Below, in pieces: positions 1,285-23,740 of a DNA stretch of 25,403 nt (positions within the stretch are counted from its first letter, which is position 1; each line of letters starts with the position of its first letter). The translations under genes and the position numbers were made by a program. The notes under the pieces are model-generated. The model ran no database searches. It was not told the DNA's origin and worked only from the letters and a program-made list of their open reading frames with translations. The DNA comes from a virus. Location of the stretch: the IMG/VR virus record IMGVR_UViG_3300035703_001118, positions 1 to 25,403 of that record. One strand, given 5' to 3'.

Positions 1285-1292
1285 TATTTAAT
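1285..1292 (-). promoter_or_regulatory. Late-type box before clpA
   Basis: Minus strand reads ATTAAATA, then CACAA, then the ATG of clpA. The TAA stop of dnaJ (1288-1290) lies inside the box. It resembles the T4-type late promoter (TATAAATA) but is less exact. An AGAGGA lies about 14 bases before the ATG, too far for a typical ribosome binding site. Readthrough from dnaJ is an alternative. Confidence 0.35.
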
Positions 1293-2073
1293 TTCCTCTA
1301 TTACGTAAAATACTATCAATTATATCGTCACTTATATTATCAGGAATGTAGGGTTTTAACAAGATTAACTGGTCGCCGTAGTTACCAGAATTCATAATTG
1401 GCATACCCTGTCCTGGCAATCGTATATGCATGTAGGGTTGTGTTTTGGGTTTAATTTTAACCAATAGTGTTTTTCCTGCTATTGTTTGAAAATTAAACTC
1501 TGTTCCTACTATTAAATCTAATACAGAGACAACATGATTTGTTACCAAATCATTTTGTCGTCTTTCAAACTTTAAATCGGGTAAAACATTAAACTGTACC
1601 AATAAGGAAGAATTAGGTAGTAAGTTGTCATAACGTATTTGTGTTCCATGCATTATACCTTTTGGAACATTTATTTCTACTAGTTTGCTTTCGACTTCAT
1701 TTTGAATCTTTAAAGTCTGTGTAGAACCATTATAAGCATCTAGTAACGATACGTTGATTCGTGTTCTATAAACCTGTCTATTGTTGCGCGGTCCTTGTTG
1801 TCCCTGACCGAACATTTGGTTAAAGATATCATGTATATCCATACCATCAACATTCCACTGAAATCCTCCAGGAAAGCCTTGAGGTTGTGGATTATCATAT
1901 TGAGTTCTTTTTTGTGGATCACTTAGTACGGCGTATGCTTCTTGTATTTGTTGGAATTTGGCTGTGTCGCCGCCCTTGTCAGGGTGATGTTGACTTGCTA
2001 ATTTGCGATAGGCTTTTTTGATTTCATCAGGTGTGGCTGTTTTGCTCACACCCAATACGGCATAGTGATCCAT
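1288..2073 (-). CDS. dnaJ: DnaJ/CbpA-like J-domain co-chaperone
   Basis: Hsp40 co-chaperone that would stimulate ATPase activity of DnaK (host or phage) and deliver substrates. Residues 1-60 are a canonical J-domain with the HPD motif in HHPDKGGD (about 29-36). A short G/F-rich stretch follows (GFPGGF, about 67-72). The rest is a C-terminal substrate-binding region, with LPGQGMP near residue 220 matching the second beta-barrel domain. There are no CxxCxGxG zinc-finger repeats, so it is a type II, CbpA-like protein rather than full DnaJ. At 261 aa it is somewhat shorter than CbpA (about 306 aa). It has no Shine-Dalgarno sequence; a sigma70-type promoter ends exactly at the ATG. It lies directly before clpA, suggesting a phage-encoded unfolding/refolding module. 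Confidence 0.93.
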
Positions 2074-2078
2074 GCTTT

Positions 2079-2107
2079 AGTATAGTTTATATTGTATGTA
2101 ATGTCAA
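2079..2107 (-). promoter_or_regulatory. Sigma70-type promoter of dnaJ, predicted leaderless
   Basis: Minus strand: TTGACA (2107-2102), 17-base spacer, TATACT (2084-2079), then TAAAGC and the dnaJ ATG (2073). With a start 6-7 bases after the -10 hexamer, transcription begins at or next to the A of ATG, and there is no ribosome binding site. The TGA stop of the upstream gene (2106-2104) lies inside TTGACA. The same geometry occurs before two other genes. Confidence 0.75.
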
Positions 2108-2370
2108 CCTATATTATCGTTTTCAGTTTTAGGTGTGACTTGAAACTTACCTGCAAATTTTTCTAAACCAGTAAAACCCAATCCAGAAATAACGATCCAC
2201 ATCATACTATCATACAATGATTGTGTAATTTGATAAGTGGTAAATAGATCAACAAAGAATCCAACCATGCAGCAAATAAAAGCTAATAATGCTATAACAC
2301 GTTTGCTTGACAATGCTGAAATATCATCACTATCGGCTAACATTGTTTTTAAGTTTTGCATGAATGACAT
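2104..2370 (-). CDS. Small two-helix membrane protein, holin-like
   Basis: 88 aa. A polar N-terminus is followed by two hydrophobic stretches, about residues 26-46 (VIALLAFICCMVGFF and following) and 55-72 (SMMWIVISGLGFTGLEKF), then a polar tail. Small phage proteins with this layout are often holins or other inner-membrane proteins. No family-specific motif is visible and no endolysin lies nearby, so holin is only a guess. A good ribosome binding site (GAGGAT, about 8 bases before ATG) supports the start. It follows a 54-aa ORF by 4 bases and is probably co-transcribed with it. Its stop codon is used inside the -35 box of the dnaJ promoter. Confidence 0.7.
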   Translation of the reverse strand: MSFMQNLKTMLADSDDISALSSKRVIALLAFICCMVGFFVDLFTTYQITQSLYDSMMWIVISGLGFTGLEKFAGKFQVTPKTENDNIG

Positions 2371-2374
2371 AATC

Positions 2375-2539
2375 TTATCCTCGATTTTTAACTGCCATTG
2401 ATTTTAATTTACCCAGCATGTTAGAAGGTTTTTCTTCTAATTTTTTAGCTTTCAATGGCTGATTTATTTCGACTTTTTTTGTTTTAGAAATTGGCAAGCT
2501 AGATACTGGTATCGTAATTGGATCTGTGATAGGGCGCAT
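2375..2539 (-). CDS. Short basic ORF, 54 aa, unknown
   Basis: A 54-codon frame fills the gap between two well-supported genes. It starts with an ATG whose A is shared with the TAA stop of the upstream gene (TAATG), a classic translational-coupling arrangement. The product begins MRPITDPITIPV and is rich in lysine and proline, with KKVEINQPLKAKKLEEK in the middle and a basic C-terminus ending KNRG. There is no membrane segment or known motif. The tight fit on both sides (1-base overlap upstream, 4-base gap downstream) makes it likely to be expressed, but no function can be proposed. Confidence 0.6.
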   Translation of the reverse strand: MRPITDPITIPVSSLPISKTKKVEINQPLKAKKLEEKPSNMLGKLKSMAVKNRG

Positions 2540-3084
2540 TATAATCCTGCTAATGATTTTACGTACCTTGTATACTCGTTATCTTCAAACATTTTCTTTT
2601 CTGGAATGTTTGCTATCTTTCTAAATTCGTTTAATTCTTCTTCGTGTTCTTTGTCTTTTCTATATTCGTGTGGCGATAATTGTATTATTTGTTTTAACAC
2701 ATCTTCATCGGCATCATAATCTTCATCATTAATTTGGATAGTATAATCTTTTACTTTGATATCAGTTAATGTTTCTAGGTCTTTAAGAATTTCAATGATT
2801 CTTTCTGGTACCGTAGTTCTGCGTTTCATTTCAGCGAACACTAACCACTTGCCTGGTTCGATTTCGCCATCACTTACACTAGCATCTAAAATATAATCGT
2901 AGCCTATTTCTAACCAATTTACTAAATCATTTGCTGCTAGTTTACTGTTAACAATAAAGGTGATAGTAACAATTTCACTATCCTTACCCATCTTTGCAGC
3001 ATATTCGTCAACTGTCAATTTAGGTTCGACTTGACCTTTAAGGTCATGATAATCTAAACCTTCATTTAAAATCTTATTGGTCAT
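2539..3084 (-). CDS. Conserved-looking phage protein of unknown function
   Basis: 181 aa, acidic, no signal peptide or membrane segment. The first half looks like a compact alpha/beta fold (ITFIVNSKLAANDLVNWLEIGYDYILDA, then KWLVFAEMKRRTTVPERIIEIL). The second half is charged (DEDYDADEDVLKQI, KDKEHEEELNEFRKIA). I do not recognise the family. An AGGA about 8 bases before ATG is a plausible ribosome binding site. It starts 1 base after the stop of the 199-aa gene upstream (TAATATG), so the two are almost certainly translated as a pair. Both share an acidic C-terminal half, which may mean they act together. Confidence 0.8.
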   Translation of the reverse strand: MTNKILNEGLDYHDLKGQVEPKLTVDEYAAKMGKDSEIVTITFIVNSKLAANDLVNWLEIGYDYILDASVSDGEIEPGKWLVFAEMKRRTTVPERIIEILKDLETLTDIKVKDYTIQINDEDYDADEDVLKQIIQLSPHEYRKDKEHEEELNEFRKIANIPEKKMFEDNEYTRYVKSLAGL

Positions 3085-3085
3085 A

Positions 3086-3685
3086 TTAAATTCCTGGCGG
3101 ACCTATGTTCGGCTGACCTGCTGCTAATGCGTTTTCTGCTTCATTCTCAGGTTGCTCTTCCTTTGTATCGTCTTTATCTAAATCTTCGTCGTATGCTTCA
3201 TCCAACTCATTGAGATCGATAGTTTGATCAGCTAGGTCAATACTTCCTTCTTTAATGTCATCCATCAATTCGAGAGGTATAGTGATTTTTACAAACCATA
3301 CTTTTCTTTCTACTGATTTAGGGTAATTTGTACCTTGTTCCAAATCGTCATAATTCTTAACTTCTACTGGTACTTTAACTTTACCTTCTGCAAAGTCAAT
3401 ATCACAACCTATTGATAATAGTCTTTTTGCGCCACGTGGATCTGGCATTAGTTTATATGGCCACATGAACATACAAGTAACATTATAGCGACCAATGTCA
3501 GGGCCCTGTACTAATTCGCCCAGTAGCCAGTTTTTAAAAGCATATACATCTGATTCGTCTAAAACGCGCTCAAAATCCAATAGTACAGACATAGCACCGT
3601 CGCTAGTCATTATGCCTTTAACAGTACTGACTATACTAGTGAAGTCTACATCGTTGAAAAAATCATCTGCTACTTTATGGGTCAT
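3086..3685 (-). CDS. Unknown acidic phage protein paired with its neighbour
   Basis: 199 aa. The N-terminal 140 residues look globular (TSDGAMSVLLDFERVLDESDVYAFKNWL, with MFMWPYKLMPDPRGAKRLLSIGCDIDF in the middle). From about residue 150 the sequence is strongly acidic (DLNELDEAYDEDLDKDDTKEEQPENEAEN) and ends in a proline/glycine-rich tail (QPNIGPPGI), likely disordered. No known motif. It is the first gene of the leftward unit facing phoH. No Shine-Dalgarno is present; instead a GATAAATA box ends 4 bases before the ATG. Function not recognised. Confidence 0.8.
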   Translation of the reverse strand: MTHKVADDFFNDVDFTSIVSTVKGIMTSDGAMSVLLDFERVLDESDVYAFKNWLLGELVQGPDIGRYNVTCMFMWPYKLMPDPRGAKRLLSIGCDIDFAEGKVKVPVEVKNYDDLEQGTNYPKSVERKVWFVKITIPLELMDDIKEGSIDLADQTIDLNELDEAYDEDLDKDDTKEEQPENEAENALAAGQPNIGPPGI

Positions 3686-3689
3686 ATTG

Positions 3690-3697
3690 TATTTATC
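3690..3697 (-). promoter_or_regulatory. Late-type box before the 199-aa gene
   Basis: Minus strand GATAAATA, then CAAT, then ATG (3685). If it works as a T4-type late promoter, transcription would start within a base or two of the start codon. This is the first gene after the divergent gap, so a promoter is expected here. A second copy of GATAAATA lies 53 bases upstream. Confidence 0.5.
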
Positions 3698-3742
3698 TGA
3701 GGCTAAAAGGAATATTAATTAGGTATCACTTTGCAGGTATAT

Positions 3743-3750
3743 TATTTATC
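3743..3750 (-). promoter_or_regulatory. Second GATAAATA box in the divergent gap
   Basis: An exact copy of the GATAAATA octamer on the minus strand, in the 162-base gap (3686-3847) between the 199-aa gene and phoH. It would give a leader of about 50 bases for the leftward unit. It may be a second promoter or chance in AT-rich DNA. No other clear element is visible in the gap apart from the phoH leader. Confidence 0.35.
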
Positions 3751-3796
3751 AAAAAAACGTATGGTATTTGTACTGCAATATTACACTATTGTAGGC

Positions 3797-3840
3797 CGTA
3801 AATACTTATGGGATTGAAAAATATCCTTCTATAAAGGAGA
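3797..3840 (+). promoter_or_regulatory. phoH leader: TAAATA box and ribosome binding site
   Basis: CGTAAATA (3797-3804) is a possible late-type promoter on the plus strand. AAGGAGA (3834-3840) is a near-perfect Shine-Dalgarno, 7 bases before TTG at 3848. This site decides the start, since no in-frame ATG lies close by. No good sigma70 -35/-10 pair was found on this strand in the gap. Confidence 0.55.
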
Positions 3841-3847
3841 CTTTACA

Positions 3848-4615
3848 TTGAGTAAAAGAAAAACTGGCGCTTTGAGAAAAGAGCAACAGAAGCAGCATAA
3901 CCATAAATCAACTAATCAGTTTCAAATTTATGAAACAAAAACAATAGATTTTAACCAAGAATACAAAAAACAACGTAAACCAGTAGAACTGCTACCGCAG
4001 TCAGTCAATCAAGAAAAATATATACTATCACTTATCGACAGAGACTTAGACATCGTAGTTGTATCCGGTCCAGCTGGCACCGGTAAGACGTACTTAGCGA
4101 TGCTAGCCGCGATCAAGTCCCTAAGACAAGGCGACTGCGATAGAATCATATTGACTAGACCTGCGGTAGCGGTCGATGATGAAAAGCACGGGTTCTTACC
4201 CGGTGATTTGAATAGTAAAATGGAACCGTGGGTGCGTCCATTACTAGACGTACTGCGTGAATTTTACTCAATGAAAGAAATAGCCCACATGTTAAATGAG
4301 CAAATCATTGAAATCACTCCACTGGCATTTTGCCGTGGTCGAAACTTTAAGAACAGTTGGGTCATACTTGATGAAGCACAAAATGCTACACCAAGTCAAA
4401 TAAAAATGCTATTGACACGTATTGCCGAAGGTAGCAAGATCGTGGTAACAGGTGACATCGAACAAACCGACAGACGAACCGCAGACAATGGTCTATTAGA
4501 CTTGACCAGCAGATTAAAAGACAATCCTGTATACGGTATCGGTGTATGTGAATTTGAGACTAAGGATATAAGACGACATAGAATGATTGAACACGTTCTA
4601 GACTTATATCGATAA
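3848..4615 (+). CDS. phoH: PhoH-like P-loop ATPase
   Basis: PhoH-family ATPase, resembling the N-terminal helicase core of superfamily 1; common in T4-like marine phages, role still unclear. 255 aa. A basic N-terminus (about 1-45) precedes the PhoH core. Walker A is GPAGTGKT (about 77-84), then ILTRPAV, Walker B VILDEAQN (about 177-184), the VTGDIEQTD motif (about 204-212) and a C-terminal RRH segment. The start is TTG, fixed by a strong ribosome binding site 7 bases upstream. It is the only plus-strand gene in the window, with its own leader and a terminator 3 bases after its stop, so it forms a single-gene transcription unit. Its length fits short phage PhoH proteins. Confidence 0.95.
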   Translation: MSKRKTGALRKEQQKQHNHKSTNQFQIYETKTIDFNQEYKKQRKPVELLPQSVNQEKYILSLIDRDLDIVVVSGPAGTGKTYLAMLAAIKSLRQGDCDRIILTRPAVAVDDEKHGFLPGDLNSKMEPWVRPLLDVLREFYSMKEIAHMLNEQIIEITPLAFCRGRNFKNSWVILDEAQNATPSQIKMLLTRIAEGSKIVVTGDIEQTDRRTADNGLLDLTSRLKDNPVYGIGVCEFETKDIRRHRMIEHVLDLYR

Positions 4616-4618
4616 TAA

Positions 4619-4644
4619 AAAACGGGGAATTATTTCCCCGTTTT
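4619..4644. terminator. Bidirectional rho-independent terminator
   Basis: A perfect 11-bp stem (AAAACGGGGAA paired with TTCCCCGTTTT) around a 4-base loop TTAT. A-runs and T-runs on both flanks make it work on either strand. It sits just after phoH and contains the last codons of the convergent 90-aa gene, whose TAA stop begins in the loop (4630-4632). Confidence 0.9.
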
Positions 4645-4902
4645 CTTTAGTGCGAATTGTGCTTCCTTTTCTAATTGTTCAATTAGAACAGGATATACTT
4701 TCCTATAATAATTTGCTAAATCGTCAAATGAACGCTCAGGGCGTTTACCTTCGACAACAAACTTTTCAATTTTTCTATTAGTAAAATCCATAATCAAATT
4801 ACAACTTTGCAAATCAGCAGGCTTACAACGTTTGCTTACTACAACCTGCTCATCAATTTGACCGCCGGGCTTTCTAAAAAAAGTAACTAAAAAGTATCGC
4901 AT
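4630..4902 (-). CDS. Small protein of unknown function, convergent with phoH
   Basis: 90 aa. It begins MRYFLVTFFRKPGGQ, followed by VVVSKRCKPADLQSCNLIMDFTNRKIEKFVVEG, which suggests a beta-strand-rich start, and ends in a helical segment (ANYYRKVYPVLIEQLEKEAQFALKK). No known motif, signal peptide or membrane span. Its last codons form one arm of the bidirectional terminator. It follows the 126-aa gene by 3 bases and has no obvious ribosome binding site, so it is probably translated by reinitiation. Function not recognised. Confidence 0.75.
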   Translation of the reverse strand: MRYFLVTFFRKPGGQIDEQVVVSKRCKPADLQSCNLIMDFTNRKIEKFVVEGKRPERSFDDLANYYRKVYPVLIEQLEKEAQFALKKTGK

Positions 4903-4905
4903 AGT

Positions 4906-5286
4906 TTATTGTTTATCAAAAGTCAAATCAATAGTTCCACCTTGCTCAAACTCATTCCAAGCAAGGATTTCTTTGCCACCGTTAGATGTTTGTACGAATA
5001 CAACTCCATTAGCATTAGCAGTCATTTTGATAGATTGACCGTTTGGATCCATCCAACCACGATCTACCCATACACCAGCAGTTGGTCCAAAACTTGCACT
5101 TCCTTGCATGAACCATACATTTTGCTGTTGCCAGAACTTCAATGCGTTAGTATTGTTTGGGTCACTAGTAGTGTTTGACCAACTCTGTCCAGGACTGATA
5201 GTTGCTAAATCACCTGTTGTATTGTGTGTGACAGTGATATTATAATCTGTATTGTTGTGAATATTCAATGTTGCTTGCCATGACAT
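4906..5286 (-). CDS. Small beta-rich protein of unknown function
   Basis: 126 aa, rich in Asn, Thr, Gly and Trp and apparently all-beta. It begins MSWQATLNIHNNTDYNITVTH, contains a WFMQGSASFGPTAGVWVDRGW segment and ends GGTIDLTFDKQ. The general look (N-terminal strand with polar/hydrophobic alternation, aromatic-rich middle) recalls small beta-sandwich proteins such as aegerolysin-like or lectin-like folds, but no diagnostic motif supports either. There is no signal peptide. The start is well supported by AAGGAGA about 7 bases upstream, one of the strongest ribosome binding sites here, suggesting abundant product. A TAAATA box sits upstream. Confidence 0.8.
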   Translation of the reverse strand: MSWQATLNIHNNTDYNITVTHNTTGDLATISPGQSWSNTTSDPNNTNALKFWQQQNVWFMQGSASFGPTAGVWVDRGWMDPNGQSIKMTANANGVVFVQTSNGGKEILAWNEFEQGGTIDLTFDKQ

Positions 5287-5304
5287 AGTATGTCTCCTTT
5301 GCTC

Positions 5305-5312
5305 TATTTAAT
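5305..5312 (-). promoter_or_regulatory. Late-type box before the 126-aa gene
   Basis: Minus strand shows TATAAATTAAATAG; the ATTAAATA part ends 18 bases before the ATG at 5286, leaving room for the AAGGAGA ribosome binding site. The TAA stop of gene 44 (5313-5315) lies in the upstream TATAAAT. A late promoter here could separate this beta-rich protein from the replication gene before it. Confidence 0.45.
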
Positions 5313-6239
5313 TTATAAAGTTGTTAGTTCAATAATAGTTGCTGTTAGACTAATCTCTGGAATACCAACTGATGGCAAACTAGCAAGACCATTACGAATA
5401 ACAACTATAGCGCGATCTTTTTGTTCTTGTGTTTTACCCCACATATCAAGATTGCTGTACATCCAAGTATAGATATCTTCAATTCTAGTAGGATATAGTG
5501 AAATATAATGTAATAGTTCTTGACGAGCTTCCATTACCTTTCCTGATTTAAACAAATCAATCGTTCTGATCAAAAGTTCATCTTCTGTGTTTCCCTCTGC
5601 ATGGGGAGGCAAAAGTTTACCAGTTACGCTATTAACCTGTAACTGATTTAAACATTTGCGTAGATCAGGATAAGTTGCGCGTACATACGTATCTAAAACA
5701 TCAAGATCAAACTCGACATTTTCTGTTACAAGAACAGTCGCAGCCCTGGCTGTGAATTCAGTCATATCAGTTTTGCTAATATGAAACTCATTACAGCGAC
5801 TCTTGAGTGCAGGAATGATCTTGTGTCTATAGTTACAAGTGAGGATATAGCGTACTGTTTCGTGATACGCTTCCATATCATTTCTCAAAGCTGCTTGCGA
5901 GGCTTGTGTTAGATAATCTGCCTCGTCTAACAGCACTACTTTGAACTTGCCAAACGGCATAGTCTGCACGAAACTGTTGATCTTTTCACGCAACATGTCA
6001 ATGCCATTTTCGCGTGAAGCATTAATTTCTAATACATCATAATCAATGATACCAAGTTCATTGATGAGAACTTTTGCTAGAGTAGTTTTACCTGTACCTG
6101 GATCACCACTCAACAACAGATGCGGGATACTATCATCTTTAATCCATTGCTCAACGATATTCTTTTGCTTTTGATCGACAAAAACATATTCTGCGACAGT
6201 TTTAGGTCTGTACGCTTCGACCCAGAGTTTTTTATTCAT
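5313..6239 (-). CDS. 44: Clamp-loader large subunit, T4 gp44-like
   Basis: AAA+ ATPase of the RFC/gp44 family, which with gp62 loads the sliding clamp (gp45) onto primed DNA for the phage polymerase. 308 aa, close to T4 gp44 (319 aa). It opens with WVEAYRPKTVAEYV, the usual clamp-loader start. Walker A is GDPGTGKTT (about 45-53), Walker B VVLLDEAD (about 103-110), and the SRC motif lies in KSRCNEF (about 146-152), where the trans-acting arginine finger sits. The C-terminal region is the helical collar domain. It has no ribosome binding site; a sigma70-type promoter ends at the start codon. No gp62, gp45 or polymerase gene is in the window. Confidence 0.95.
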   Translation of the reverse strand: MNKKLWVEAYRPKTVAEYVFVDQKQKNIVEQWIKDDSIPHLLLSGDPGTGKTTLAKVLINELGIIDYDVLEINASRENGIDMLREKINSFVQTMPFGKFKVVLLDEADYLTQASQAALRNDMEAYHETVRYILTCNYRHKIIPALKSRCNEFHISKTDMTEFTARAATVLVTENVEFDLDVLDTYVRATYPDLRKCLNQLQVNSVTGKLLPPHAEGNTEDELLIRTIDLFKSGKVMEARQELLHYISLYPTRIEDIYTWMYSNLDMWGKTQEQKDRAIVVIRNGLASLPSVGIPEISLTATIIELTTL

Positions 6240-6245
6240 GCAATA

Positions 6246-6274
6246 AGTTTAGTTGAATCAGAATACAGTGTCAA
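6246..6274 (-). promoter_or_regulatory. Sigma70-type promoter of gene 44, predicted leaderless
   Basis: Minus strand: TTGACA (6274-6269), 17-base spacer, TAAACT (6251-6246), then TATTGC and ATG (6239). Spacing is identical to the dnaJ and dnaE-like promoters, placing the transcription start at the start codon. No Shine-Dalgarno is present. The upstream GroES gene stops 4 bases before the -35 box. Confidence 0.7.
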
Positions 6275-6278
6275 CTGT

Positions 6279-6635
6279 TTAGATTTCCTTATCACTTAAT
6301 GTTAGATCATTTACTGGTTCGTCGCTTATCATTAGAACGTCTTTTGGATCAACTTTACGAATGGTCTGCTCACCATTTTCATCTTCGATCTTAATTCCAC
6401 GAGTCCAACGACCATGACTAATACAAATATACTGCCCAACCTTTATGCCTTTTGTGTCAGGACCTACAGCATAAACCTTACCCCAACGTGGACGAATACC
6501 AGTATTCTTCATATCATCGTTTCTTAAGATAAGACCACTACTAGTGATTCTTTCTCCGAAATACATATCAGACACTATAATAGTGTCATGCAATGCACGA
6601 ATTTTACCTACTTTGTATGGATTAATATTAGCCAT
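6279..6635 (-). CDS. groES: GroES/gp31-like co-chaperonin
   Basis: Cap for the GroEL folding chamber; T4 gp31 plays this role for the major capsid protein. 118 aa against about 97 for GroES and 111 for gp31. Visible GroES features: VGKIRALHDTIIV at the start, corresponding to the PLxDRVxV strand; a mobile-loop region with a hydrophobic tip, ITSSGLILRND (about 31-41); then the GKVYAVGPDTKGIKVGQYICIS core strands (about 53-74). The extra length is a C-terminal tail (EPVNDLTLSDKEI). It overlaps the gene before it by 8 bases (ATGGCTAA). In this phage it would help host GroEL fold virion proteins. No phage GroEL is in view. Confidence 0.85.
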   Translation of the reverse strand: MANINPYKVGKIRALHDTIIVSDMYFGERITSSGLILRNDDMKNTGIRPRWGKVYAVGPDTKGIKVGQYICISHGRWTRGIKIEDENGEQTIRKVDPKDVLMISDEPVNDLTLSDKEI

Positions 6636-6948
6636 GTTTCTTTTTAATTTCCTCTACTTCTAAATCATCATTAAATTCTGCGTCAAGTTCCAATTCTTCT
6701 TTAGTTAATTCTGGTTTAGGTGGTGTTGGTTTAATTTGTGTTTGTGCTGATTTATTACCAACTGTTTGTGCATATTGCTGGCTGATACGGTCAGTGACCG
6801 GAACCAATACTTTTCCATTGTGATCTATGATATCACCCCTAGCGTTGGCTTTCATATTACCTACGGCAGGAGTTTTTTCATTCTTTGCCAATAGTGCATT
6901 CATGTCAACAGTTTTGCCTCTGGCAGTTTTATAAGTTTTATTACGCAT
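6628..6948 (-). CDS. Small phage protein of unknown function
   Basis: 106 aa. The N-terminal half carries YKTARGKTVDMNALLAKNE, then VGNMKANARGDIIDHNGKVLV, a pattern I associate with small conserved proteins of T4-like environmental phages, though no role is known to me. The C-terminal half is proline-rich, then strongly acidic (TKEELELDAEFNDDLEVEEIKKKHG), probably disordered. A good ribosome binding site (GGGAGC) lies 6 bases before ATG, inside the end of the dnaE-like gene; the genes overlap by 8 bases. It also overlaps groES by 8 bases, so the three are tightly coupled. Confidence 0.8.
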   Translation of the reverse strand: MRNKTYKTARGKTVDMNALLAKNEKTPAVGNMKANARGDIIDHNGKVLVPVTDRISQQYAQTVGNKSAQTQIKPTPPKPELTKEELELDAEFNDDLEVEEIKKKHG

Positions 6949-7465
6949 TTTTTGCTCCCGATTTAAAAAATTCTTCTACTGGAAGATCGTAGTATAAGCT
7001 ATTTATTTTGTGTACCCCTAGCAAATATAAAACAAAACTAGCAACACTACTACCACGACCTACTCCCCAAACAATATTATTATTGCGCATAGTATCAACC
7101 AAATACTTTAGATACTTAAGTAGATCAAACATATTGTTATCTTGGTATAGTAATAGTTCTTGTCCGGCACGTTGTAATTCACCATCATTAGTACAGTTGT
7201 CCAAAATATATTGTGCTATATCAAGATTTTTATACTCTTCTGGCATAAGCCAAATAGATTGATTGATAGTGTCGAATTCTTCTACAGATACTTTTGGATC
7301 TACATATTCTAACAGTTTTGGTTTATAAACTAAATCTAAGTTACTATCAAAATTAATATTACAGTCAGTCAAGACCTTTTGTAACTGTTTTTCTGGATCC
7401 AGCATGAATTGTTCACACAAGTCTTCCTCAGAAAAAATTAACTGACCATAGTTATCTCTATGCAT
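6941..7465 (-). CDS. Short DnaE (Pol III alpha)-like protein
   Basis: 174 aa from ATG at 7465. The second half matches the bacterial DNA polymerase III alpha subunit around its palm entry: a helical stretch LLLYQDNNMFDLLKYLKYLVDTM, then VGRGSSVASFVLYLLG (about 141-156), equivalent to the GRGSAAGS motif of DnaE, then YDLPVEEFF, equivalent to the segment before the catalytic PDIDxDF. The protein ends there, so catalytic aspartates, fingers and thumb are absent, and the PHP domain is missing or unrecognisable. The frame is open up to TTG at 7552, but ATG 7465 is preferred because an exact sigma70 promoter ends there and overlap with the upstream gene disappears. It cannot be an active Pol III; it may bind DNA, nucleotide or another replisome protein. 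Confidence 0.8.
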   Translation of the reverse strand: MHRDNYGQLIFSEEDLCEQFMLDPEKQLQKVLTDCNINFDSNLDLVYKPKLLEYVDPKVSVEEFDTINQSIWLMPEEYKNLDIAQYILDNCTNDGELQRAGQELLLYQDNNMFDLLKYLKYLVDTMRNNNIVWGVGRGSSVASFVLYLLGVHKINSLYYDLPVEEFFKSGAKNA

Positions 7466-7471
7466 TGAAAT

Positions 7472-7500
7472 ATTGTAAAGCAAAACTATTGATGTGTCAA
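7472..7500 (-). promoter_or_regulatory. Sigma70-type promoter of the dnaE-like gene, predicted leaderless
   Basis: Minus strand: TTGACA (7500-7495), 17-base spacer, TACAAT (7477-7472), then ATTTCA and ATG (7465). This is the same spacing as before dnaJ and gene 44. The TGA stop of the upstream gene (7499-7497) lies inside TTGACA. The site selects ATG 7465 over the more upstream TTG codons. Confidence 0.75.
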
Positions 7501-9386: not shown

Positions 9387-12300
9387 AATACTGAGGATCC
9401 TTAGGTAAAATAGTCTTTCTAGGGAACAATACGTAAAAATCTTTACTATCCTGTGGATCTGGAACAGGTGTTCCGCTAGGCAATCCAGTCCAAGTTGGTG
9501 GGCTAGTGCTATTATCGTAATTATATGTTAATGACTTATCTACACTAAATCTGTCGATCTTGAAATCGATTTGATTTAGTTTATATGGCCACAAGTTTTC
9601 TATATTGGCTTTAATAATATCGCTGTAAGAAATTTCTAAGAATTTGGCAGTCATACGACCGGATGCGGTTAATAATGTATAAACATCGCCGTCTACTGTT
9701 TGACTAATTTTTATTTCAGTGTCGCTTACAATTTCTTTTACATAGTAAGTATCATTATTAAAGATATTACCAAAAGTTGTTCCTGTAAAGACGACTGGTT
9801 TACCTACTATAAATCCTTCTGTACTTTCAACTACTACTATATTGTCTACAGCAACAGTCTGTGTTGCAACAGTTGTATATGATTGTCTTGGTTTAACGTA
9901 TGCGATTACCCACGCAGGAGTATATCCTAATGTATTACCATCTTGCTGCTGACTAGTCATCCATGTAGGCAGTAACTTATAATTATATTGTTGTCCTAAT
10001 ATATCTGCTACTTGCTGACGCATGTTAGGTAAGCTGTTTGGATATAAAACTTTAGCATATCCAGGTGTTAGACTTGTATAAAATCTAGGATCGCCCTGGT
10101 TAGTAAACAATTGAACTAAGTTCTGAGTCAACAACTTTTGTTTTAATATTGTAGTTAATAGATTTTGATTTCTATCAAACTCGTAACTAGTATAGATATC
10201 AGTAATACTTGTGTAGAATGGACCTATGCCTAAGTTGATTAGTGTAGGCCATATTATTTCTTTACTGATACTAATATTTTGTGGGTTAATTAAGTTGTCA
10301 ATAACTTTGCTATAAACAACTTCATATATTATATTACCTTCTTCATCTTTAGCTACTGCTGTTTCGATTTCACCTAGTGTAATATTTCTCCAATAATGAT
10401 TTTTAGTTACTGCTGCAACATATTCAGGTAATTGACTTGCATCAATACCATATGCATGTGCGTATATTACATTTTGTGCCTTACCGAAATTGCTATCATC
10501 AGGTCTGTATAAAAATTCTTCAGGTATAATATTATTGTCTGTCAATAAATTTTGAATGACTGCTCTATCTTCAAATCCTGGAGTACACTTAATATATAAG
10601 TTATCAGTAGGTTCAGGGAATTCTTGCACTACATCTAATGTAAATGTTCTAGTACTAGTGATTAATGGATTATCTACGTTATAAGCCTGCACAGTAAATA
10701 TAAATGTAGTTTTTTCATTTGGATCTACAATTGTTGTACTTGGTTGAAACGCTGTGGTACCAGTCAAATCTCCGTTTGATTGTAATATTAGGTTAGGAGG
10801 CAAATCACCTTCTAATAACTCATATGTGAATTCTACTTGAGATAGTGCTTGTATCTTTAGTGTACTCTTGGTTGCATTATTAATCTCTCCCATATTTTCA
10901 GGAGTCAACCAAGTTATAGTTGGATCAATTTCATTTGAAACTGTAAATCCAAAGTTAAAAATTGCGAAACTATTAAAATCGTTTACTTTTCTTACTGTAA
11001 CCTGAAATGTAAATTGACTAATAGTGCCAATTGGCACTGTGGGTATTCCGTTTATCCAACCAGTTACTGGATCTAAACTTAAAAATGCAGGTGCAGATCC
11101 TAGCTGATAGTCTAACGTATCATTATTAAAATCATGACCTATAATTTTAAAATTTAAAATATTGTCACTTAAAAAGTTTCCAATAAATGCAGTCTGACTA
11201 GGTAGATATGTTTGTCCTTCTAATGCAACTGAACCAGCTGGTGGTAACACAAAGTAACCAAAATCTTCTGGCAGTGAAACATAATCGAATGTAGGAGGTC
11301 TAGTATTATAAATTGTAGGAGCAGGTATTCCACCGCTAACAGTAGGAGCATTTCTATTCTCTATGATTATAGCATATTGATTTAAATCGTCACCTAATTC
11401 ACTTTGTAATCTTATTGAAAAGTTATAAGTTTTAATAATAGGTTCGTCTTGTGTTGTGGCAGGTAATAATATATCCATGAACCCTACCCCATCACTCAAC
11501 GCAATTTCTGGTCCATCTTGTGTAGCACTTACTGTAAAAGATAAAATATTAACATTTTTTACATAATACGTTGTATCTTCATTCAATCCACCTAACAATG
11601 TGCCAGAAAACTGCACTGGTCTACCTGGTAGAAATCCATTTATATCTGTTACGTTAATTAAATTTGTGCTAGATGTAGTAGATGTTGCTAAAGAAGTTAC
11701 TGCAGGTAAACTTTTATTTGCTATTGGAGGTTCTGGATAACCACGTATTAATCCATTACCGTTAGGATTTAATTCTAAACCAGGTGGGAGTGTACCCTCT
11801 GCTAATGTTAATATTACTTTATTAGTTGATATAGGATTAGTATACGGTATAGCAAATTCTATCCAAGTACTATCTAAAAATGTTAGTGAATCCAATGTAG
11901 TTAATTGAGGTATTATATCTCCAGTAATAATCAATGAAAACGTTCTATCGTTTACATGCTGTAAATTATCTATGGCTCTTACCACAAATGTATAGTTTTG
12001 ATCACTTGTCGCTGTGTTAACAGCCGGAGTACCTGATAAAACGCCGTTTTCGTCTAATGATAATCCTTCAGGTATATTGCCTGATATTATAGAATAAAAT
12101 ACATTGACTGCTGGCAATTGTGGAGAAGCACTAAAATTAATAACTAATGGTATTAAAGCCGGATATACTCCTAACGCTCCACTAGGTGTGTTCCATATTG
12201 GAGGAGCATCACCTACAATCTTCATGTTGAAAGTTCTATCTGTATAATTACCTAAATTATCAGTTATACGTACAGTAAAATAATATTGCTGACCTGCTGT

Positions 12301-22432: not shown

Positions 22433-22909
22433 TTAATTGTTTTTGTTCGTCAATACCTTAAGCAGTTCATTACGATCTAACACCTTGCCTTCGCCGAGTG
22501 GTGTAGCTTCTATCTGCTTTTCTTTAGTAGCTTCTTTTTGATCAAGTGCGGCTTTTTTAAGCTGTAGTTCGATCATTTTTAGCTTTTTATTGACTTTTGC
22601 TGTTTTAGCAGTTATAGCATGTCCAAGCATAGTACCTGCGACATTGAATATTTCGCTACTATAACGACTATCAACTTGCATACCCAAATCCATTAAATCT
22701 TTATAACTTGACTGTGCTAGACCCGCTAATTCATCCATTTCTACGTCAGCTATTTCTAACCCACGTACTTGAGGTAAAGCATTTTCTATCTTTTCTAAAT
22801 TGTCTAGTGCTTCTTTTGTGACTTCTTGCGTTTGTTCAGGAAGTGGTTCTGTCAATTCATTATTATCAGAGCTAGAAAGTTCGAATAGTTCTTCCAATTT
22901 TTTCGTCAT
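22433..22909 (-). CDS. 16: Terminase small subunit, gp16-like
   Basis: DNA-packaging initiator that recognises phage DNA and stimulates the large terminase. 158 aa, close to T4 gp16 (164 aa). The N-terminus is acidic; the core is helical: ALPQVRGLEIADVEMDELAGLAQSSYKDLMDLG, then SSEIFNVAGTMLGHAITAKTAKVNKKLKMIELQLKKA, a central coiled-coil pattern fitting ring-forming small terminases. The 'EVF/IFNVA..LG..I......' stretch matches the conserved gp16 core I know from T4-like cyanophages. The C-terminus LDRNELLKVLTNK is typical of that group. It follows gp4 by 7 bases. The large subunit (gp17) is not in the window. A late-type box ends 4 bases before ATG. Confidence 0.8.
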   Translation of the reverse strand: MTKKLEELFELSSSDNNELTEPLPEQTQEVTKEALDNLEKIENALPQVRGLEIADVEMDELAGLAQSSYKDLMDLGMQVDSRYSSEIFNVAGTMLGHAITAKTAKVNKKLKMIELQLKKAALDQKEATKEKQIEATPLGEGKVLDRNELLKVLTNKNN

Positions 22910-22913
22910 ACGG

Positions 22914-22921
22914 TATTTATT
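22914..22921 (-). promoter_or_regulatory. Late-type box before gene 16
   Basis: Minus strand AATAAATA (22921-22914), then CCGT, then ATG (22909). The TAA stop of gene 4 (22919-22917) is part of the box. If active, the transcript would begin at or beside the start codon; no ribosome binding site is present. Confidence 0.5.
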
Positions 22922-23358: not shown

Positions 23359-23727
23359 TCATTGTACTACGTTTCTTGCTACAGGTTCATTGGGCATTGG
23401 TATAGTTGCAACACCATACAATGCTGTTTTTGATCTTACACTGTTTAGATAATAACACATTATACTGTTTAACTGTAATTTATCTTGTGCTTTACCCTGA
23501 ATGATCTGTAATAAATCAATTGCAGGGACGCCTGATAATTGTGTTACACGAAATAATGATGAAGCTAAGTTGCCTGCAATTTTATCAGTTTCACAAATAG
23601 TTTTAAAATATCCATAAACTACATCCCATTCATTTGAAGGAATGTTGAGTTCTGCATTATAAAATGCATCAAATATTCTAACAGTTTGATCTAGTGTTTC
23701 TTTTCTATTATCGATTATAGTTGGCAT
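23359..23727 (-). CDS. Conserved T4-like virion-associated protein, 122 aa
   Basis: 122 aa, mostly helical: DQTVRIFDAFYNAELNIPSNEWDVVYGYFKTIC, then SSLFRVTQLSGVPAIDLLQIIQGKAQDKLQLNSIMCYYLNSVRSKTALYGV, ending PNEPVARNVVQ. The 'YYLN..RSKT..LGV....P....ARNV' ending is one I associate with a small structural protein conserved near gp4 in T4-like cyanophages; its exact role is not known to me. It lies between a tail-tube-fold gene and gp4, matching that neighbourhood. A TATAAATA box ends 5 bases before ATG, with no ribosome binding site. Confidence 0.75.
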   Translation of the reverse strand: MPTIIDNRKETLDQTVRIFDAFYNAELNIPSNEWDVVYGYFKTICETDKIAGNLASSLFRVTQLSGVPAIDLLQIIQGKAQDKLQLNSIMCYYLNSVRSKTALYGVATIPMPNEPVARNVVQ

Positions 23728-23732
23728 AGAAC

Positions 23733-23740
23733 TATTTATA
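23733..23740 (-). promoter_or_regulatory. Exact T4-type late promoter TATAAATA
   Basis: Minus strand TATAAATA (23740-23733), then GTTCT, then ATG (23727). This is the exact T4 late consensus. With the usual late-promoter spacing, the first transcribed base is the A of ATG. The TAA stop of the upstream gene (23738-23736) lies inside the box. Confidence 0.65.

Follow-up and report, generated by a model that had tools for sequence, protein, structure and literature searches.

The phage represented by the window (the whole 25.4-kb stretch of DNA analysed here) is a member of a clade of giant, uncultured phages related to T4, in which promoters are highly likely to be placed in two ways, leaderless and leadered, with the window genes dnaJ, gp44 and a DNA polymerase III alpha-like (pol-III-like) gene predicted to be leaderless by means of sigma70-type promoters. 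In the leaderless way, transcription would begin at the A of the ATG or no more than one or two bases from it, either from a host sigma70-type promoter (TTGACA-N17-TATAAT, 6 bases to the ATG) or from a late NATAAATA box 4–5 bases before the ATG, a form that appears to be used by structural genes such as 3086–3685. In the other, leadered way, promoters of both types would lie 16–36 bases upstream, often together with a Shine-Dalgarno (SD) sequence.

The window (IMG/VR record IMGVR_UViG_3300035703_001118) carries tail-fibre, structural and replication genes, and its uncultured relatives are numerous, some having genomes of 300–367 kb. The gp44 protein was found to share 53% identity with that of Pseudomonas phage PA5oct and its kin, with T4-like phages being more distant. 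The ATG starts assigned to dnaJ, gp44 and the pol-III-like gene (Table 1) are supported by the homology of each protein, which begins at or next to residue 1. A longer reading frame for the pol-III-like gene, starting at TTG 7552, was rejected, as one relative (L083) has an in-frame stop immediately before the equivalent of ATG 7465. With regard to the host, gp44 had no match among the 84,980 bacterial and archaeal genomes scanned, and the phage-encoded bS21 allowed no host call, its relatives being mixed (Margulisbacteria, Bacteriovoracaceae, Flavobacteriales and others).

Table 1. Predicted leaderless genes and putative promoters of the window (window coordinates).
Feature	Coordinates	Strand	Description
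dnaJ-like gene	1288..2073	-	J-domain protein, 261 aa; predicted leaderless
dnaJ promoter, sigma70-type	2079..2107	-	TTGACA 2107-2102, N17, TATACT 2084-2079, N5 (AAAGC), ATG 2073
gp44 gene	5313..6239	-	sliding-clamp loader, 308 aa; PHROG 168, E 1e-75; predicted leaderless
gp44 promoter, sigma70-type	6246..6274	-	TTGACA 6274-6269, N17, TAAACT 6251-6246, N6, ATG 6239
DNA polymerase III alpha-like gene	6941..7465	-	174 aa; DNA_pol3_alpha PF07733, E 2e-10; PHROG 11127; predicted leaderless
pol-III-like promoter, sigma70-type	7472..7500	-	TTGACA 7500-7495, N17, TACAAT 7477-7472, N6, ATG 7465
late promoter GATAAATA	3690..3697	-	4 bases before ATG 3685, virion structural gene 3086-3685
late promoter AATAAATA	22914..22921	-	4 bases before ATG 22909, gene 22433-22909
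late promoter TATAAATA	23733..23740	-	5 bases before ATG 23727, gene 23359-23727

A preliminary description of this DNA had reported TTGACA, 17 bases and a good -10 hexamer on the minus strand before each of the three ATGs, and the sequences do read in this way. The further claim of exactly 6 bases between the -10 and the ATG holds for gp44 and the pol-III-like gene but not for dnaJ, where there are 5. The reported lack of an SD was borne out, none being found at any of the three sites when one was sought before these ATGs. All three genes have AUG as start codon, and +1, when placed from the -10 box, would fall on the A of this codon, within 1–2 bases. The pattern TTGACA-N15-19-TANNNT-N4-9-ATG occurs three times in the window compared with 0.30 expected (0 of 100 shuffles reached three), and this relaxed-spacing search returned exactly the dnaJ, gp44 and pol-III-like sites. 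Generic promoter-like matches in the window are not in excess (62 compared with 54.6 expected), and the signal is therefore the coupling of promoter to ATG. The intergenic gaps before the three genes are 30–39 bases. For dnaJ and the pol-III-like gene (two of the three), the upstream gene ends in the TGA within TTGACA, and the promoter thus occupies the entire gap.

The distance (d) between the promoter box (-10 or late box) and the ATG was examined across the genomes of 11 relatives and the window. Sigma70-like sites with a 17-base spacer number 35 at d = 6 and average approximately 1.5 at each of the other positions below d = 22, although these counts are not independent, since the compared genomes are related, and family counts are safer. 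A second, broad mode lies at d = 23–36, with little between the two modes, and about half of the sites in this second class have SD-like words. When strict sites were considered in nine genomes and the window, 33 were found at the 6-base peak, and a reversed-pattern control gave no peak. The base at -1 of the d = 6 sites is C or T in 80%, with A at +1; a pyrimidine at -1 and A at +1 is the usual start preference of sigma70. A TA-like signal located ~10 bp upstream of start codons has been reported as an in-silico mark of leaderless genes (PMC3160421). The recurring sigma70-type families predicted to be leaderless are dnaJ (nine genomes), the pol-III-like gene (six), a 5'-3' exonuclease (four) and a dNMP kinase (three). 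Those found across divergent genomes include the exonuclease (PF02739), the kinase (PF21448) and a deoxyribonucleotidase (PF06941), with a GIY-YIG protein, a PP-loop protein, a predicted exonuclease and several unknowns as further families; many of the sigma70-type leaderless genes are replication and nucleotide genes. The leadered early sigma70 promoters of the relatives share a long common consensus, TTGACAATAAATgG.TTTgGttaTATAATA.AttCtT, far stronger than plain sigma70, which is mostly lacking at the leaderless sites.

The search of relatives against shuffled upstream regions that had been proposed in the preliminary description was carried out with orthologues dereplicated at 85% identity, on the basis of 9 or more matches to the 12 consensus bases, positioned 4–8 bases from the ATG. 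The layout was found to be kept before dnaJ in 42 of 46 relatives (shuffled mean 1.5), before the pol-III-like gene in 14 of 24 (shuffled mean 0.4) and before gp44 in 5 of 32 (shuffled mean 0.5). Boxes and spacing are retained among orthologues though the sequence of the spacer diverges. This conservation, together with the sharp 6-base peak, strongly supports the leaderless reading, and dnaJ, gp44 and the pol-III-like gene are very probably true leaderless genes. In two of the pol-III-like orthologues counted as misses, another ATG lies in frame two codons farther upstream, at d of approximately 5, and these orthologues therefore also fit. For gp44, the layout is found only with the same upstream gene (eight relatives), while in other subclades the promoter lies ~26–30 bases upstream together with an SD, or there is no promoter. 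Ten dnaJ relatives without a -35 box have TG one base before the -10, which is what an extended -10 promoter would need.

The promoter spacer of dnaJ was also observed to contain, in a number of relatives, an inverted repeat ~8–30 bases before the ATG, the arms of which covary (TAACAGA/TCTGTTA, TAGCATA/TATGCTA, GCATACA/TGTATGC and TAACGCA/TGCGTTA). Stems of at least five pairs are present in 26 of 44 dereplicated sequences compared with ~3 in shuffles; such a repeat is absent from the window itself. It may serve as an operator, or may form a hairpin in read-through transcripts or late mRNA. In 13 relatives a AATAAATA late box lies 35–39 bases before the dnaJ ATG, directly ahead of TTGACA. A late transcript from this box would begin with the inverted repeat, and dnaJ may therefore have a leaderless early mRNA and a hairpin-led late one. 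PA5oct has a hairpin, AAAGCACTTA-TTTTCGA-TAAGTGCTTT, in the same place upstream of its dnaJ (at 12201), without a sigma70 promoter.

A similar arrangement was found for late promoters of the T4 type, in which the NATAAATA box precedes the inferred start site of late genes by a fixed number of bases. Three such promoters lie in the window (Table 1). The structural family of gene 3086–3685 has the late leaderless layout in all 10 genomes scanned, the window included, and the layout seen before gene 22433–22909 is also found in three relatives (G004, G007 and G013). Among the 11 relatives and the window, 203 late boxes are located at d = 3–7, only 12 at d = 8–12 and 250 at d = 13–27; d = 4 and d = 5 together account for 165 (70 and 95, respectively). 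SD-like words are found near 5 of 182 boxes at d = 3–7 compared with 82 of 178 at d = 15–24. Late leaderless placement is predicted for 189 genes; these fall into 91 families, 36 of which are present in at least two genomes, and a gp55-like late sigma factor was identified in 8 of 13 relatives. The T4 late box occupies positions -13 to -6 (PMC1524935), and d = 5 would therefore place the A of the ATG at +1. As sigma70 and late sites both have two modes, both promoter classes exist in leaderless and leadered form, often before conserved genes.

These late promoters bear on the earlier suggestion that the three window sites represent a fixed regulatory unit for early/middle genes. Replication and nucleotide genes are indeed numerous among those with the layout, but late promoters before structural genes have it likewise (three genes in the window), and a pure early/middle regulon was rejected. 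What these genes share is therefore a general way of placing the start codon, and they do not make up one regulon.

The same layout would also arise if genome compaction alone had squeezed promoters into the smallest gap, the missing leader then having no regulatory or translational role. The short gaps of the window and the stop codons lying inside TTGACA agree with such an origin. However, compaction alone should give short leaders of every length, whereas the observed distances are bimodal with almost none at 8–12 bases, and specific gene families retain the layout across large divergence. Compaction as the whole explanation is considered rather unlikely. It is improbable that these genes are translated mainly from read-through mRNAs by coupling or re-initiation, the ATG-proximal promoter being minor, even if most gp44 relatives have no promoter and follow directly on their neighbour, and the inverted repeat of many dnaJ relatives would be carried only by a read-through or upstream late transcript. 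Conservation of the promoter boxes is clear, and upstream stops ~30–39 bases away with no SD, as in the window, are poorly suited to re-initiation. Chance matches in AT-rich DNA, with which only the lack of an excess of generic matches in the window agrees, have a negligible probability given the shuffles of the window and relatives, the reversed-pattern control and the sharp genome-wide peaks.

Under leaderless placement, the mRNA would have no SD and translation must then start by recognition of the 5'-terminal AUG. We infer both the exact start at the A of the AUG and this mode of initiation from promoter position; start sites can shift by 1–3 bases, and leaders of 0–3 bases are therefore possible. 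A further mRNA, with a leader, could arise by read-through from the genes upstream. Initiation on the leaderless mRNAs would be by 70S ribosomes, or by 30S subunits with initiator tRNA, and may be helped by phage-encoded IF1, bS21 and initiator tRNA. An IF1-like gene was found in 6 of 13 relatives (G001–G005 and G011), including all five above 300 kb, and bS21 in 7 of 13 as well as in PA5oct; neither IF3 nor IF2 was detectable in the 13 relatives. The C1:A72 mismatch is a mark of initiator tRNA, and tRNA-Met genes of this type were identified in G001 (168495), G004 (201328), G005 (122204) and PA5oct (270167). Extra initiator tRNA has been described as strongly favouring leaderless mRNA, with IF1 and IF2 stimulating such mRNA in vitro and excess IF3 inhibiting some (review, PMC9031893). 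A set of IF1, bS21 and initiator tRNA without IF3 or IF2 would suit 5'-AUG initiation, though the set is not specific. As a sole explanation bS21 was rejected, being present in only 7 of 13 relatives and also in PA5oct, which has both bS21 and initiator tRNA yet few leaderless sites; IF1 was rejected as a specific marker, as Phosso has IF1 but no late box 4–5 bases before an ATG. It is a speculative and rather unlikely possibility that the clade runs a second, leaderless translation programme, in which phage IF1, bS21 and initiator-type tRNA, without IF3 or IF2, would tilt the host ribosome toward tens of 5'-AUG mRNAs per genome and away from the SD-led mRNAs of the host.

The leaderless cI mRNA of phage lambda, transcribed from PRM, is likewise the product of a phage gene with a sigma70 promoter, a start at the A of the AUG and no SD. 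However, cI is a single repressor gene, whereas tens of genes per genome and two promoter classes would be concerned in this clade. The late box is the same as that of the T4-type late promoters (TATAAATA, gp55/gp33/gp45), but T4 has no late box at d = 3–7 before an ATG, its late genes being leadered. Genome-wide leaderless genes of Actinobacteria and Deinococcus-Thermus have a -10 signal at a fixed short distance, alongside SD-led genes, as here (PMC3160421); those are cellular genomes, while the present ones are phage genomes and include a phage late-promoter class.

The layout is restricted to the clade as a widespread arrangement, being a minority in PA5oct (Arenbergviridae) and Pelagibacter phage Mosig, relatives with gp44 in common. 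In PA5oct, four late boxes lie at d = 5, and a single sigma70 site, at d = 7, precedes an exonuclease gene (at 158242) homologous to the leaderless exonucleases of the clade. In Mosig (MT647606), a NATAAATA box precedes an ATG by exactly 5 bases in six cases, which suggests that pelagiphages, too, have a limited group of late leaderless genes. For Syn9, Phosso, Atu_ph07, SCTP-2, GAP32 and Vibrio phage 2.275.O, the counts of the pattern were similar to those at control spacing or too low for a judgement, and that of XacN1 was 5 compared with 2. AR9 was rejected as a leaderless precedent, its mapped leaders being 26–491 nt. Freshwater jumbo phages with their own bS21 are also giant and carry this protein as do some clade members; it has been proposed that their bS21 steers ribosomes to phage mRNA, and the main text of that report contains no mention of leaderless genes or promoters (PMC9723584).

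The literature searched, which covers few of the subscription journals, yielded no description of leaderless genes either for this clade or for T4-type late promoters. The individual ingredients are known, and the novelty, as far as this literature shows, lies in the scale and in the late-promoter class. Leaderless placement would represent a conserved, genome-wide second mode of expression, apparently undescribed in this jumbo-phage clade. Leaderless mRNAs of phages are usually treated as single curiosities, cI being an example, whereas here they would correspond to a sizeable share of the clade's promoters. Orthologues which keep or switch the mode form natural pairs in which the cost or gain of a leader can be tested, and leaderless genes offer a testable reason for the carriage of IF1, bS21 and initiator tRNA by giant phages.
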